Source: an uncultured Alphaproteobacteria bacterium
Lineage (GTDB): Bacteria > Pseudomonadota > Alphaproteobacteria > HIMB59 > GCA-002718135
DNA: 39,994 nucleotides
Reading direction: 5' to 3'
Assembly (NCBI GenBank): GCA_902601455.1
Contig: CACKNC010000011.1
Coordinates: 1 to 39,994 of the forward strand
Within the stretch, counting starts at the first letter, position 1. Each line of letters begins with the position of its first letter. The notes below the pieces were generated by a model. It was not told the DNA's origin. It was given only the letters and a program-made list of their open reading frames with translations, and ran no database searches. Of this stretch, positions 1-34,513 are shown piece after piece. Position numbers and translations under genes: made by a program.

Positions 1-2
1 AG

Positions 3-1286
3 ATTAATTTTGAAGGCCCAGATAGTGATAATCCTTTGAGTTTTAAGTATTATGATGAAGATAAACAAGTTTTAGGAAAAACGATGAAAGAACAGCTTCG
101 TTTCGCAACCTGTTATTGGCACACTTTTACTTGGCCAGGATTAGATCCGTTTGGAGGAGCAACATTTGATAGACCTTGGATGTCTGTTTCTGATCCTCTA
201 AAAATGGCAGAAATGAAACTTGATGAGGCTTTTGATTTTTTTAATAAAATCAACACTTCTTTCTTCTGTTTTCATGATAGAGATATTGCACCTGAAGGAT
301 CAAACTATAAAGAAACACAAAAAAATTTCCTACACATTGTTGATTTAATGGAATCAAAAATGAGTTCATCCAATGTTAAACTTTTATGGGGAACGGCAAA
401 TGCATTCTCACATAAAAGATATATGAGCGGGGCATCAACAAATCCTGATCCAGAAGTTTTTGCTTATAAAGCAGCTCAAGTAAAAGACTGTATGGATGCA
501 ACAAAAAGATTAGGTGGAAGTAATTATGTTTTATGGGGTGGAAGAGAAGGGTATGAAACTATTCTTAACACCAATATGGGATTAGAGATTGATAACCTAA
601 AACGATTTCTTGAACTTGTAGTAGATCATAAACACAAGATTGGTTTTGATGGCCAAATTTTACTTGAGCCAAAACCACATGAACCCACAAAGCATCAATA
701 TGATTTTGATGCAGCATCTTGTTTGGCTTTTTTAAGAAAAGCTGGTTTGGAGAATGAAATAAAATTAAATATTGAAGCAAATCATGCAACATTATCTGGT
801 CATAGCTTTGAACATGAAATTGCATATGCAATTGCTAATAATGCTCTTGGAAGTTTAGATATTAATAGAGGCGATACTTTATTAGGATGGGATACTGACC
901 AATTTCCCAATAGTGTATCAGAATTAATTCTTCCTTTTTATCATATTTTTTCAAATGGTGGCATTGGTCAAGGGGGGCTAAACTTTGATGCCAAAATTCG
1001 AAGACAATCTATTGATCCTGAGGATTTGTTTTACGCTCACATAGGTGGCATGGATGTATGTGCTAAAACACTTTTAGCAGTTGAAAAAATGATAAATGAT
1101 AAAAAGCTTTCTGATTATGTTTCAAAAAGATATCAGGATTGGCAGAAGGATCTTGGTAATTTTATTCATACCGAAGGGACTTCTTTAGACTCAATTCATC
1201 AAAAAGTCCTTAATGAAAATATTGAACCTGAACCACGATCAGGTAATCAAGAGTATTTAGAAAATATTTTGAACAAGTACCTGTAG
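3..1286 (+). CDS. xylA: Xylose isomerase, 5'-truncated by the window edge
   Basis: Interconverts D-xylose and D-xylulose (and glucose/fructose) in the cytoplasm. The reading frame is open to the left edge: bases 3-35 encode INFEGPDSDNP, matching the family region just before the conserved LxFxxYxxxxxVLGK segment, so the true start lies outside. The TTG at 36 is internal. Visible family signatures are CYWHTF, the active-site histidine in FCFHDRDIAPEG, the metal and lysine region LLEPKPHEPTKHQYDFD, the metal ligands in NIEANHATLSGH, and DINRGDTLLGWDTDQFP with the paired aspartates. The C-terminus looks complete. Only the first few dozen residues are missing. A sugar ABC transporter lies at the other end of the window, and whether it carries xylose cannot be told. 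Assignment is very secure. Confidence 0.96.
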   Translation: MNFEGPDSDNPLSFKYYDEDKQVLGKTMKEQLRFATCYWHTFTWPGLDPFGGATFDRPWMSVSDPLKMAEMKLDEAFDFFNKINTSFFCFHDRDIAPEGSNYKETQKNFLHIVDLMESKMSSSNVKLLWGTANAFSHKRYMSGASTNPDPEVFAYKAAQVKDCMDATKRLGGSNYVLWGGREGYETILNTNMGLEIDNLKRFLELVVDHKHKIGFDGQILLEPKPHEPTKHQYDFDAASCLAFLRKAGLENEIKLNIEANHATLSGHSFEHEIAYAIANNALGSLDINRGDTLLGWDTDQFPNSVSELILPFYHIFSNGGIGQGGLNFDAKIRRQSIDPEDLFYAHIGGMDVCAKTLLAVEKMINDKKLSDYVSKRYQDWQKDLGNFIHTEGTSLDSIHQKVLNENIEPEPRSGNQEYLENILNKYL

Positions 1287-31335: not shown

Positions 31336-32484
31336 ATGAAAAAAAAATTACGTTTAGGAATGATAGGTGGTGGCCAAGGCGCATTTATAGGTGCGGTCCA
31401 TCGTTTATCTGCAAGAATGGATGATAAATATGATTTTGTAGCAGGGTGTTTATCTTCAACGCCAGAGAAAGCTGAATTATCTGCAAAAGAATTAGGTTTA
31501 GACTTAACAAGAAGTTATCCTGATTACAAAACCATGTCAGAAAAAGAATCACAAAGAGAGGACGGTATTGAAGTTGTCTCTATAGTAACCCCAAATCATA
31601 TGCATGCTGGACCAGCTATAGAATTTTTAAATAAAGGTATTAACGTTATTTGTGACAAACCGATGACGGCGACAATAGAAGATGCTTACGAACTAATGAA
31701 AGCTATAAAATCATCTAATGCCCATTTTTTCCTAACTCATAACTATTCTGGTTATCCTGTTATAAGAGAAATGAGATCTTTAGTAAAAAATGGTGAGCTT
31801 GGAAATTTGCGAATTGTTAAAGGATCTTATTTGCAAGGTTGGTTAGGCTCTAGGGAAGAAGGTACCGGTACAAATAAGCAAGCAGAATGGAGAACGGATC
31901 CAAAAAGAAGTGGAGCAGCTGGTGCAGTTGGAGATATTGGAAGTCATACAATGCATTTATTAGAATTTATTACAGGCTTAAAGTGTGAGTCTGTTGCAGC
32001 TGATTTAACAACTTTTGTTGAAGGAAGAAAATTAGATGATGATGCCTCAATAATGATTCGTATGAGTGAAAATGTAAAAGGAAATTTATCAATTTCACAA
32101 ATTGCAACTGGTCAAGAAAACCACTTTAATATTTCAATTTATGGAGAAAAAGGAGCGCTGCATTGGGCACAAGAAAATCCTAATTATGCAAGATTTTCGA
32201 AAATTGGAAGTGCAGATCAAATTATAACCCGTGGTGGAGCAATTCAAAATAACAACTCTTATGCTCCGATTCGTATTCCTCCAGGTCATCCTGAGGGTTA
32301 TTTAGAAGGATTTGCCCAAATTTATTCAGATGCAGCTGATATTATTCAAAATCATAAAAATAAAAATGAATTATTAGAGTTATTACCAGGTGGTGATTCT
32401 GGATTACAAATAATGAAGTTTATAAATGCTTCAGTGAATTCAAGTAATAATAAAAGTATTTGGACAGATTTAAGCTCTATTTAA
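31336..32484 (+). CDS. Gfo/Idh/MocA family NAD(P)-dependent oxidoreductase
   Basis: A 382-residue sugar or polyol dehydrogenase. The N-terminal Rossmann fold starts RLGMIGGGQGAFIGAVHR; SIVTPNHMHAGPAIEFL follows, and CDKPMTAT is the family's EKP-like motif. The C-terminal substrate domain has GAVGDIGSHTMHLLEFITG with the catalytic aspartate and histidine. GHPEGYLEGFAQIYSDAADII is common among inositol or levoglucosan-type members. It is translated together with the isomerase gene just upstream. Confidence 0.9.
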   Translation: MKKKLRLGMIGGGQGAFIGAVHRLSARMDDKYDFVAGCLSSTPEKAELSAKELGLDLTRSYPDYKTMSEKESQREDGIEVVSIVTPNHMHAGPAIEFLNKGINVICDKPMTATIEDAYELMKAIKSSNAHFFLTHNYSGYPVIREMRSLVKNGELGNLRIVKGSYLQGWLGSREEGTGTNKQAEWRTDPKRSGAAGAVGDIGSHTMHLLEFITGLKCESVAADLTTFVEGRKLDDDASIMIRMSENVKGNLSISQIATGQENHFNISIYGEKGALHWAQENPNYARFSKIGSADQIITRGGAIQNNNSYAPIRIPPGHPEGYLEGFAQIYSDAADIIQNHKNKNELLELLPGGDSGLQIMKFINASVNSSNNKSIWTDLSSI

Positions 32485-32500
32485 TAAACGCATAATTACC

Positions 32501-32536
32501 TATGCATTTTTTGCATATCTGTTTTTCTTATTTTTT
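32501..32536 (+). terminator. Weak rho-independent terminator after the oxidoreductase gene
   Basis: TATGCA (32501-32506), a loop of five T, then TGCATA (32512-32517), followed within 4 bases by a T-rich tract (32521-32536). The six-pair stem is AT-rich and weak. It is the only terminator-like element between the oxidoreductase stop and the amt leader. Confidence 0.4.
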
Positions 32537-32573
32537 ACTTTCAATTTTTAATATTAGTTCTAATTAGATAATT

Positions 32574-32624
32574 ACGTTCATCATGTTTTACATGACGGAA
32601 GTAAGCGAAAGCTGAAGGAACGCA
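32574..32624 (+). promoter_or_regulatory. Glutamine riboswitch (glnA RNA motif), first of two tandem copies
   Basis: P1 pairs CGTTC (32575-32579) with GAACG (32618-32622). P2 is TCATG (32581-32585) with CATGA (32591-32595) around a TTTTA loop. P3 is AGC (32604-32606) with GCT (32611-32613) around GAAA. The joining segments CGGAAGTA (32596-32603) and GAAGGAACGC (32614-32623) match what I recall of the glnA motif, which binds L-glutamine in cyanobacteria and marine metagenomic sequences. The target gene here, an ammonium transporter, fits. Family assignment is from memory of the consensus. Confidence 0.83.
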
Positions 32625-32639
32625 TGCAAAGTTATTAAA

Positions 32640-32690
32640 TCGTTCAATCTGCAATAGCAGATCGGAAGTAGGTAAAACCGAAGGAACGCG
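32640..32690 (+). promoter_or_regulatory. Glutamine riboswitch (glnA RNA motif), second of two tandem copies
   Basis: P1 pairs CGTTC (32641-32645) with GAACG (32684-32688). P2 is ATCTGC (32647-32652) with GCAGAT (32657-32662). P3 is GGT (32671-32673) with ACC (32677-32679). The conserved joins CGGAAGTA (32663-32670) and GAAGGAACGC (32680-32689) are identical to the first copy, while P2 and P3 differ in sequence but keep pairing, which supports a real RNA fold. About 17 bases separate the copies. Confidence 0.85.
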
Positions 32691-32700
32691 GAATTTATAT

Positions 32701-32783
32701 ATTAATTTCCATAGCTAAGCATGAATATTAGCACATAACTTATGGTAAGTTATGTCTTGTGCAATTTATAATGGAGGATTAAT
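32701..32783 (+). promoter_or_regulatory. Candidate expression platform hiding the amt ribosome site
   Basis: Bases 32701-32712 (ATTAATTTCCAT) can pair with 32771-32783 (ATGGAGGATTAAT), leaving one bulged A and two G-U pairs. This would bury the GGAGG ribosome site (32773-32777) and part of the amt ATG. Inside it are two adjacent hairpins: GCTAA/TTAGC (32714-32732) and ACATAACTT/AAGTTATGT (32733-32755). A competing hairpin, GGAA (32690-32693) with TTCC (32707-32710), uses the same bases and abuts the second aptamer. Pairings are seen in the sequence; the switching role is inferred. Confidence 0.5.
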
Positions 32784-34068
32784 GTTTAAAAGATCTCTTT
32801 ATTTTTTAAGTTTATTATCAACTTTTTTACTTCTAAGCTCTTACGCCAAAGCCGGTGTTGATGCAGAAGTAGCATATATATTTAATACCTTTTCGTTTTT
32901 GGTGTGTGGTTTTCTAGTTATGTGGATGGCTGCAGGTTTTTTATTTTTAGAGTCAGGCTTGGTTACTACAAGAAGTGTTTCAACTATTGCTGCTAAAAAT
33001 ATTGGTAAGTTTGCAATTGTTTCAATCGTATTCTATTTGTTTGGTTACAATCTAGGGTATGGTATTCCTGAAGGAGGTTATATTGGTTCTTTTAGTATAT
33101 GGACCGATAATTCTTCATTGGAAACTGGATATTCAGATGCTTCAGATTGGTTTTTTCAAGCATTATTTGTTTGTGCAACAGTATCTATAGTTTCAGGAGC
33201 GGTTGCAGAAAGAATAAAAATTTGGCCTTTTTTTGCTTTTGCAGCAATACTTGGTGGATTTATTTACCCTATACAAATGGGCTGGGAATGGGGTGGAGGC
33301 TGGCTTGATTCATTAGGCTTTTCTGATTTTGCTGGATCCACTTTAGTTCATGCTTGTGGCGGATCAGCTGCATTGGCTGGAATAATATTATTAGGACCTA
33401 GATTAGGAAGGTTTACAGAATCTGGAGAACCTGCAAACATGGCGCCCTTTGCACCTTCTTCTATACCGCTAGTAACTCTTGGAACATTCATTTTATGGAT
33501 GGGTTGGTATGGTTTTAATGGAGGATCACAATTAGCACTTGGCTCTTATGAAGATGCTACTGCTATGTCCAAAATATTTATGAATACTCAGTTAGCTGCT
33601 TGTGGTGGGTGCATGGCAGGAGCTATTATTACAAGATTAATCGGTGGTAAAACTGATATTGTGATGATGTTAAATGGTGCTCTTGCAGGATTGGTATCAA
33701 TAACAGCAGAGCCATTGATGCCTTCACCTTTATTGTCAATTTTCATTGGCGCAATTGGGGGTGTTATTATGTTTTATGGTACTCAGTTGTTAAATTCTCT
33801 TAAGCTTGATGATGTTGTAGGAGCAATACCTGTACATATGTTTGCGGGTATATGGGGAACTTTAATTGTACCGTTTACTAATCCAGACGCATCATATGGT
33901 ATTCAATTACTTGGCGTTGTATCAGTTTGTCTTTTTGTTTTCTTTTTTTCTTACATAGTGATTTATCTATTAAAAATCTCAATGGGACTGAGAATTAGTG
34001 AAGAGGCAGAAAAACTTGGAACTGATAAAGCAGAAATTGGTGTAGTTGCTTATTCAATTAGAGATTAA
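32782..34068 (+). CDS. amt: Ammonium transporter (Amt/MEP/Rh family)
   Basis: Inner-membrane trimeric channel for ammonium uptake. About 428 residues with 11 expected membrane helices after a signal peptide (roughly 1-24, ending YAKA). Conserved features: FLVMWMAAGFLFLESGLV, FFQALFVCATVSIVSGAVAERI (Phe gate), DFAGSTLVHACGGSAALAG with the first pore histidine and the preceding aspartate, WMGWYGFNGGS, and HMFAGIWGTL with the second pore histidine. I chose ATG 32782, preceded by GGAGG at 4 bases; ATG 32752 would add ten residues ahead of the signal peptide and lies within a stem. It is controlled, by inference, by the tandem riboswitch upstream. No GlnK/GlnB gene is adjacent. Confidence 0.95.
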   Translation: MFKRSLYFLSLLSTFLLLSSYAKAGVDAEVAYIFNTFSFLVCGFLVMWMAAGFLFLESGLVTTRSVSTIAAKNIGKFAIVSIVFYLFGYNLGYGIPEGGYIGSFSIWTDNSSLETGYSDASDWFFQALFVCATVSIVSGAVAERIKIWPFFAFAAILGGFIYPIQMGWEWGGGWLDSLGFSDFAGSTLVHACGGSAALAGIILLGPRLGRFTESGEPANMAPFAPSSIPLVTLGTFILWMGWYGFNGGSQLALGSYEDATAMSKIFMNTQLAACGGCMAGAIITRLIGGKTDIVMMLNGALAGLVSITAEPLMPSPLLSIFIGAIGGVIMFYGTQLLNSLKLDDVVGAIPVHMFAGIWGTLIVPFTNPDASYGIQLLGVVSVCLFVFFFSYIVIYLLKISMGLRISEEAEKLGTDKAEIGVVAYSIRD

Positions 34069-34144: not shown

Positions 34145-34513
34145 ATGAATGCTGAAGAAATAATCAATTTTAATAAAAAAGCTCTATATTCCAGTCTTAC
34201 TAGCACAAATACATCTAGCAGGTTTTTTAATAAGTCAATTTTACATTATGCAGCAACAATGGAAATATTTTCTTTTACTAAGATAGGAGGTATTTCTTAT
34301 GAAAAGTTGTGTTTGAATATACCTAAAACACTTGGTTCAAGATCTAGCATACAAAATTTACTTAATGAGGGATTAGATAAAAAACTTCTTTTAAAAATTG
34401 AAAGCACTAATGACAGAAGAATTAAGAATTATTTTCTAAATGATAGTTTCCATCAATTAGTTGTAAATTGGATAAAAGAACAAAAAAATATTTATAATAA
34501 TTTAAAAATTTAA
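34145..34513 (+). CDS. Small winged-helix (MarR-like) protein
   Basis: A 122-residue protein with the shape of a MarR-type winged helix: a helix around 32-46 (ILHYAATMEIFSFTKIG), a second block ISYEKLCLNIPKTLGSRSSI, then a recognition-like helix RSSIQNLLNEGLDKKLLLKI and a wing with ESTNDRRIKNYFL (the usual D-x-R-R wing). There is no other domain. It sits directly after the amt terminator. A DNA-binding role is inferred from this pattern only, and its targets are unknown. Confidence 0.62.
   Translation: MNAEEIINFNKKALYSSLTSTNTSSRFFNKSILHYAATMEIFSFTKIGGISYEKLCLNIPKTLGSRSSIQNLLNEGLDKKLLLKIESTNDRRIKNYFLNDSFHQLVVNWIKEQKNIYNNLKI

Follow-up and report, generated by a model that had tools for sequence, protein, structure and literature searches.

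The ammonium transporter gene amt of an uncultured marine alphaproteobacterium is preceded by two closely spaced, similar RNA elements, which raises the questions of what these elements sense, whether they act together, and how they would control the gene behind them. The window analyzed here is the whole stretch of 39,994 bases, an entire contig of a 1.42-Mb genome (39 contigs, 85.75% complete). A preliminary description had assigned both elements to the glutamine riboswitch class (glnA RNA) and proposed an Rfam search, which was run with cmscan. Both elements matched the type 1 glutamine riboswitch model RF01739 over its full length (1–53 of 53) and far above the gathering score of 35: aptamer 1 at 32573–32626 with 64.0 bits (E = 4.8e-12) and aptamer 2 at 32639–32692 with 60.5 bits (E = 4.5e-11), both on the forward strand. 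No other Rfam family reached gathering level in the window, and the Downstream-peptide model (type 2 glutamine riboswitch, RF01704), being without such a match, was rejected. The gene itself starts 89 nt behind aptamer 2 (32782–34068, forward strand) and encodes, as had been described, an ammonium transporter (428 aa; TIGR03644, marine subtype, 535.3 bits, cut-off 514). It is followed by a gene for a 122-aa protein (34145–34513, forward strand) that reads like a winged-helix regulator, lacks a Pfam match up to E = 1, and is 42% identical to a protein encoded between two amt genes of a relative (L012, 1850–2224).

The two elements share the join CGGAAGTA (32596–32603 in aptamer 1 and 32663–32670 in aptamer 2), the join GAAGGAACGC as read from the sequence, and the outer helix P1, CGTTC/GAACG, formed by 32575–32579 with 32618–32622 in aptamer 1 and by 32641–32645 with 32684–32688 in aptamer 2; the positions and sequences given for these features in the preliminary description were correct. 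Helices P2 and P3 had been said to differ in sequence while keeping their pairing, and an alignment of 29 relatives drawn from four gene groups bears this out. Fifteen of the 32 pairs changed on both sides, a number reached by 21 of 500 shuffles. There were 142 cells with two-sided changes, and the covariation score was 0.402 compared with 0.164 in shuffles; each of these values was reached by 0 of 500 shuffles. Across P1, P2, and P3, 99.1% of the cells were paired. P1 is invariant among the relatives and hence uninformative in this test, and because the relatives were selected by a pattern that requires the joins, the constancy of the joins among them partly reflects this choice. The pattern played no part in the Rfam matches in the window, in its own genome, and in the genus. 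The stability of the whole leader is unremarkable (z = −1.82; 13 of 200 shuffles fold equally well).

The paired RF01739 elements before amt are real and go beyond chance. By computed family membership, they would constitute a tandem type 1 glutamine riboswitch in the amt leader, and the explanation of which this forms a part, set out below, is in our judgment fairly probable as a whole. The identity of the ligand is drawn solely from the family, so aptamer-like RNAs of this kind might bind a compound other than L-glutamine. Given full-length matches far over the cut-off with every conserved join kept, and adjoining genes of known role (amt and glnA) that belong to ammonium assimilation, such a ligand is very improbable.

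The class, its tandems, and its association with amt were in print by 2010, so the identification itself is not new: passages of the paper by Weinberg (PMC2864571) note associations with amt, PII, and glutamine synthetase, as well as tandem arrangements. A 2018 review describes the class as restricted to cyanobacteria, these gene associations being environmental (PMC6316151). The elements studied here resemble the published class in their full-length aptamers, with the same joins and helices. Unlike the cyanobacteria-only class of that review, they have an alphaproteobacterial host; further differences are their fixed linker and tail and their link to a gene for a circularly permuted ATP-grasp protein, a link that goes unmentioned in the consulted passages of the published class descriptions.

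That the host is an alphaproteobacterium, as previously suggested, agrees with its nearest named relatives, which are uncultured Alphaproteobacteria. A survey of related amt leaders, also proposed in the preliminary description, found the aptamer pair by pattern before amt in 47 of 78 loci: all 46 "uncultured Alphaproteobacteria" loci with upstream DNA and one Pelagibacteraceae locus (L039). None was found by this pattern in the 27 other amt loci with upstream DNA, mostly with Pelagibacter-type titles; the remaining four loci had too little upstream DNA for the search. With the covariance model, RF01739 was found in 36 of 37 genomes of the host genus, 15 of which have six or more matches. The only genus genome without it (G015, 82% complete) also lacks a PII match and may be missing contigs. 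RF01739 was found in none of 24 genomes of the sister family and in 23 of 32 genomes of one further family of the class. Elsewhere the RNA is rare: under stricter filters, a sample of the class gave RF01739 in 6 of 385 genomes, all from the family of the host genus and the further RNA-bearing family, and a sample of the phylum gave it in the window's own genome only, out of 398. The consulted part of a paper on the HIMB59/AEGEAN-169 clade (PMC10308909) does not mention a riboswitch.

In the window's genome, a second doublet lies between glnB and glnA. Leaders from the genus, collected with the join-requiring pattern rather than the covariance model, were classified by the next gene: 51 precede the amt of the window, 38 a second amt, 20 glnA, and 20 a circularly permuted ATP-grasp gene (PF14403, PF04174), and four leaders with a single aptamer precede a third, divergent amt. 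The set includes 20 further stretches taken from among the RF01739 matches listed; the window's own or duplicate places were dropped: L001, L003, and L005 do not enter the classification, nor does L002, which is absent from the leader set as well. The amt doublet would accordingly be one member of a glutamine-RNA regulon comprising two amt genes, glnA, and the ATP-grasp gene, with a third amt under one aptamer, in a streamlined marine genus, a reading from sequence that belongs to the same fairly probable explanation. In the further RNA-bearing family, 11 of 12 loci read precede the ATP-grasp gene, as judged from the beginnings of the proteins (for the one that was compared, identity was 61%), and the remaining one precedes a Gcw_chp gene followed by an amt-like frame. 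At this last locus (L264), one aptamer stands before the porin-like Gcw_chp gene (839–1474) and the amt-like frame, and a frame reading like glutamate synthase (2–826, reverse strand) diverges from the Gcw_chp gene. In all 20 ATP-grasp leaders (L085–L090, L093–L099, L101, L102, L110, L111, L113, L114, and L133), an open frame of 16–25 aa lies between riboswitch and gene and ends −5 to +8 nt from the start codon; it is possibly a leader peptide with coupled translation.

The preliminary description had suggested that two copies could sharpen the response. Whether the two aptamers act together was addressed through the sequences that flank aptamer 2. The inter-aptamer linker of the window, CAUGCAAAGUUAUUAAAU (18 nt, 32623–32640, forward strand), contains CAUGC (32623–32627) and AGUUAU (32630–32635), which are complementary to GCAUG (32719–32723) and AUAGCU (32711–32716) in a tail behind aptamer 2 (32711–32723, forward strand); across the leaders, the inner tail arm reads AUARCU and the internal loop differs by gene group. 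The linker is 16–18 nt long in the doublet leaders. All five outer pairs of this proposed linker–tail helix are present in 128 of 128 doublet leaders, a count that excludes the four single-aptamer leaders as well as an ATP-grasp leader lying close to the end of its contig. The six inner pairs, with the register taken as the best of six offsets, are complete in 123 leaders, with five of six in two and four of six in three; the window's own leader, outside the 128, has all 11 pairs. These leaders are not independent, as they comprise 24 distinct linker-plus-tail combinations (and L101 and L133 are one place). For 13 representatives, the linker–tail energy was −8.5 to −12.4 kcal/mol, and as a partner for the linker, the tail outdid all other non-overlapping segments in each of the distinct leaders (91 of 91). 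RNAalifold included CAUGC/GCAUG in its consensus unprompted. It also placed a pairing of GGAA in aptamer 2 with UUCC in the tail, which we set aside because hardly any of it forms when amt leaders are folded singly (0.01 expected pairs). Covariation lends the helix no support, since the outer pairs are nearly invariant: of the five, four are constant and the fifth changes on a single side only.

In the folding model, the probability of the linker–tail helix in the amt leaders (n = 47) rose from 0.57 to 0.89 with aptamer 1 formed, 0.94 with aptamer 2 formed, and 0.95 with both. In the leaders of the second amt (n = 38), it was 0.90 to 0.98. For glnA (n = 20), the values with none, aptamer 1, aptamer 2, and both formed were 0.37, 0.72, 0.20, and 0.20, and for the ATP-grasp gene (n = 18), they were 0.20, 0.18, 0.54, and 0.46. 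Because the helix encloses aptamer 2 and borders directly on P1 of aptamer 1, it could be steadied by either aptamer. The 11-pair complementarity is thus suggestive of a coupled pair of aptamers sharing one platform and points to a physical coupling between them. A tandem glycine riboswitch is a close comparison: it likewise sets two similar aptamers at short distance ahead of one downstream region, and the linker pairing outside the aptamers recalls the leader–linker interaction of glycine riboswitches named in a title that PMC9481103 cites. The differences are an unrelated aptamer and a linker whose proposed partner is located downstream, so that the helix would enclose aptamer 2, instead of in a 5' leader.

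Alternatively, the two aptamers may be independent (pseudo-cooperative) switches, with linker and tail alike through recent copying of the cassette or some cause other than pairing. This would agree with the scant covariation of linker and tail and with the 2022 review cited above, which counts 157 glutamine doublets and four triplets, calls them pseudo-cooperative, independent switches, and puts the doublets in the multiple-platform class (PMC9481103). Doublets without such pairing also occur in viruses: there are at least 11 among the 120 loci listed, with short linkers that find only weak complementarity farther downstream (best, −5.4 kcal/mol). Yet linker and tail stayed alike in cassettes whose P2 and P3 helices have drifted apart through compensatory changes, a linker of 16–18 nt is probably too small for a platform between the aptamers, terminator-like sites are absent from 32440–32820, and 0 of 300 linker shuffles reached the observed energy for 12 of 13 representatives (2.7% did so for the last). 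Independent switches are therefore unlikely in our view, though to be taken seriously, and we prefer the coupled arrangement.

Glutamine riboswitches have been reported in marine phages, according to an excerpt of PMC9004378. The viral contigs that carry tandem glutamine-riboswitch-like elements have them directly 5' of short frames (L157, L163, L182, L205, L219, L220, L235, L245, L252, L258, and L261), and at several of these loci a small hairpin surrounds the Shine–Dalgarno site right behind P1. A phage origin of the module was considered and rejected, as the viral linkers are short and weakly complementary and the exact linker pattern gave 0 matches in the viral contig set (viral_contigs).

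How would the aptamers act on amt? In the region 32440–32820, we found no terminator-like sites (shuffle mean, 0.1), and a terminator platform was rejected on this basis; no sigma-70-like promoter sites were found there either (shuffle mean, 2.5). Behind aptamer 2, a tail strand, AUUAAUUUCCAU (32701–32712, forward strand), can pair with the Shine–Dalgarno and start region in a single fold and in the ensemble, making it a possible sequestering strand. A perfect 10-bp hairpin, ACATAACTTA/TAAGTTATGT (32733–32755, forward strand), whose arms vary together in the amt leaders compared, separates the tail from the start site, where a Shine–Dalgarno-like GGAGG stands at 32773–32777 (forward strand). 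Folding indicates that both amt and glnA have a start region with which the tail is able to pair. With no terminator-like site and a tail able to reach the start region, control is probably exerted at translation. In the mechanism we propose, L-glutamine would bind both aptamers and close their P1 helices; with P1 of aptamer 1 abutting the linker–tail helix and P1 of aptamer 2 inside it, binding would be read out jointly through one tail, which would alternate between the linker and the start region and so set ribosome access. Glutamine would in this way directly control ammonium uptake. Coevolution of tail and Shine–Dalgarno region was also considered and rejected, a swap matrix of the 13 representatives being without clear specificity.

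From feedback logic alone, it is quite likely that less Amt is made at high glutamine. With aptamers formed, opening the start region becomes more costly for amt (+0.71 kcal/mol; 33 of 47 leaders up) and glnA (+0.68 kcal/mol; 14 of 20 up), which favors repression; the second amt (+0.06 kcal/mol) and the ATP-grasp gene (−0.34 kcal/mol) show no such tendency. When the linker–tail helix was forced, the start region opened in 94 of 123 leaders and closed in 18. Of 48 amt leaders, 40 lost tail-to-start pairing with both aptamers formed and none gained it, the opposite of repression; in the window, it dropped from 7.95 to 0.44 expected pairs on aptamer formation in the ensemble model. This last result would fit a switch in which glutamine turns amt on: the unliganded tail would lie on the Shine–Dalgarno region, and the ligand would close both P1 helices and free the start through the linker–tail helix, the probability of which increases on binding as described above. 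Cyanobacterial glutamine riboswitches activate expression, according to PMC6316151. However, an end product driving its own uptake would amount to positive feedback and makes little sense, the glnA leaders lean the opposite way (tail-to-start pairing rises in 12 of 20 and falls in two), the opening cost leans to repression for amt itself, and the folding model includes neither tertiary contacts nor transcription kinetics. We consider activation of amt by glutamine improbable. Because the three folding measures disagree between gene groups, and shift with how much of the coding region is folded along, we claim no direction from folding; repression at high glutamine is the reading we retain.

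The preliminary description had placed the RNA in an organism with few protein regulators. GlnD is the classical protein glutamine sensor. A profile search for GlnD (TIGR01693) gave no match in 41 of 41 host-genus genomes, with controls matching in 5 of 14, and 35 of 41 genomes of the sister family matched, including 10 of 10 good-quality ones; all 24 sister-family genomes without RF01739 are among these 35. Incompleteness of the genus genomes can hardly account for the absence. In the further family with the RNA, which there lies mainly before the ATP-grasp gene, 23 of 32 genomes have a GlnD match, 10 of them over the cut-off; the RNA and GlnD can thus occur together. Sigma-54 (PF04552) was found over the cut-off in 0 of 41 genus genomes, with one sub-threshold match (19.6 bits; cut-off, 22.8). 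No genus genome has more than one strong match to the sigma-54 activator domain (such a match reaches E < 1e-16 in 30 of the 41, and one genome has a partial match), a count that leaves aside lower-scoring matches in frames of roughly 760 aa. The sole such protein examined, from genome G029, is NtrX-like (best family NtrX, 404.5 bits, under the cut-off of 600), and its gene adjoins a histidine kinase gene and a frame reading like TrkA. One PII match is present in 33 of 41 genus genomes, never more than one in each, and the window's genome keeps its single PII gene, glnB, beside glnA. The earlier claim thus stands as to GlnD and sigma-54 and is to be qualified as to PII. The T-loop of the genus PII has one extra residue and lacks an RGAEY-like context; its tyrosine is kept in 24 of the 25 sequences read (PII genes L005 and L272–L300) and is phenylalanine in one. 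Loss of the RGAEY context of the uridylylation site fits the absence of GlnD.

This situation resembles streamlined SAR11-type nitrogen control in that marine Alphaproteobacteria lack GlnD and keep an NtrX-like regulator; genomes of SAR11 IIIa and LD12 have glnB and lack glnD, as stated in sections of PMC10030771. Unlike there, the host genus has the aptamer pair, which the pattern did not find in the 27 other, mostly Pelagibacter-type, amt loci, and the same sections name no RNA sensor in place of GlnD. In the open-licence literature, we found no report of RNA/GlnD exclusion or of the linker–tail helix, and the primary aptamer or SAR11 nitrogen literature may hold an earlier mention. Three points go beyond the identification of the class: the scope of the regulon, the way RNA and GlnD complement each other in their distribution, and the linker–tail complementarity.

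Taken together, we tentatively propose that glutamine sensing may have moved from protein to RNA in this genus, a possibility about which we remain somewhat doubtful: with GlnD and sigma-54 gone and NtrC-type control putatively gone as well, a two-aptamer, one-platform riboswitch with a linker–tail helix would have been copied before two amt genes, glnA, and the ATP-grasp gene, so that the mRNAs would sense glutamine themselves, and cooperatively. The environmental glnA RNAs known from amt and glnA leaders gain a kind of host, a little-studied ATP-grasp gene becomes linked to glutamine in two alphaproteobacterial families, and the doublet offers a compact module for measuring the coupling between two glutamine aptamers. 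With GlnD present in the sister family that lacks the RNA, and missing where the RNA spreads over assimilation genes, replacement of a protein sensor by an RNA sensor becomes directly testable.
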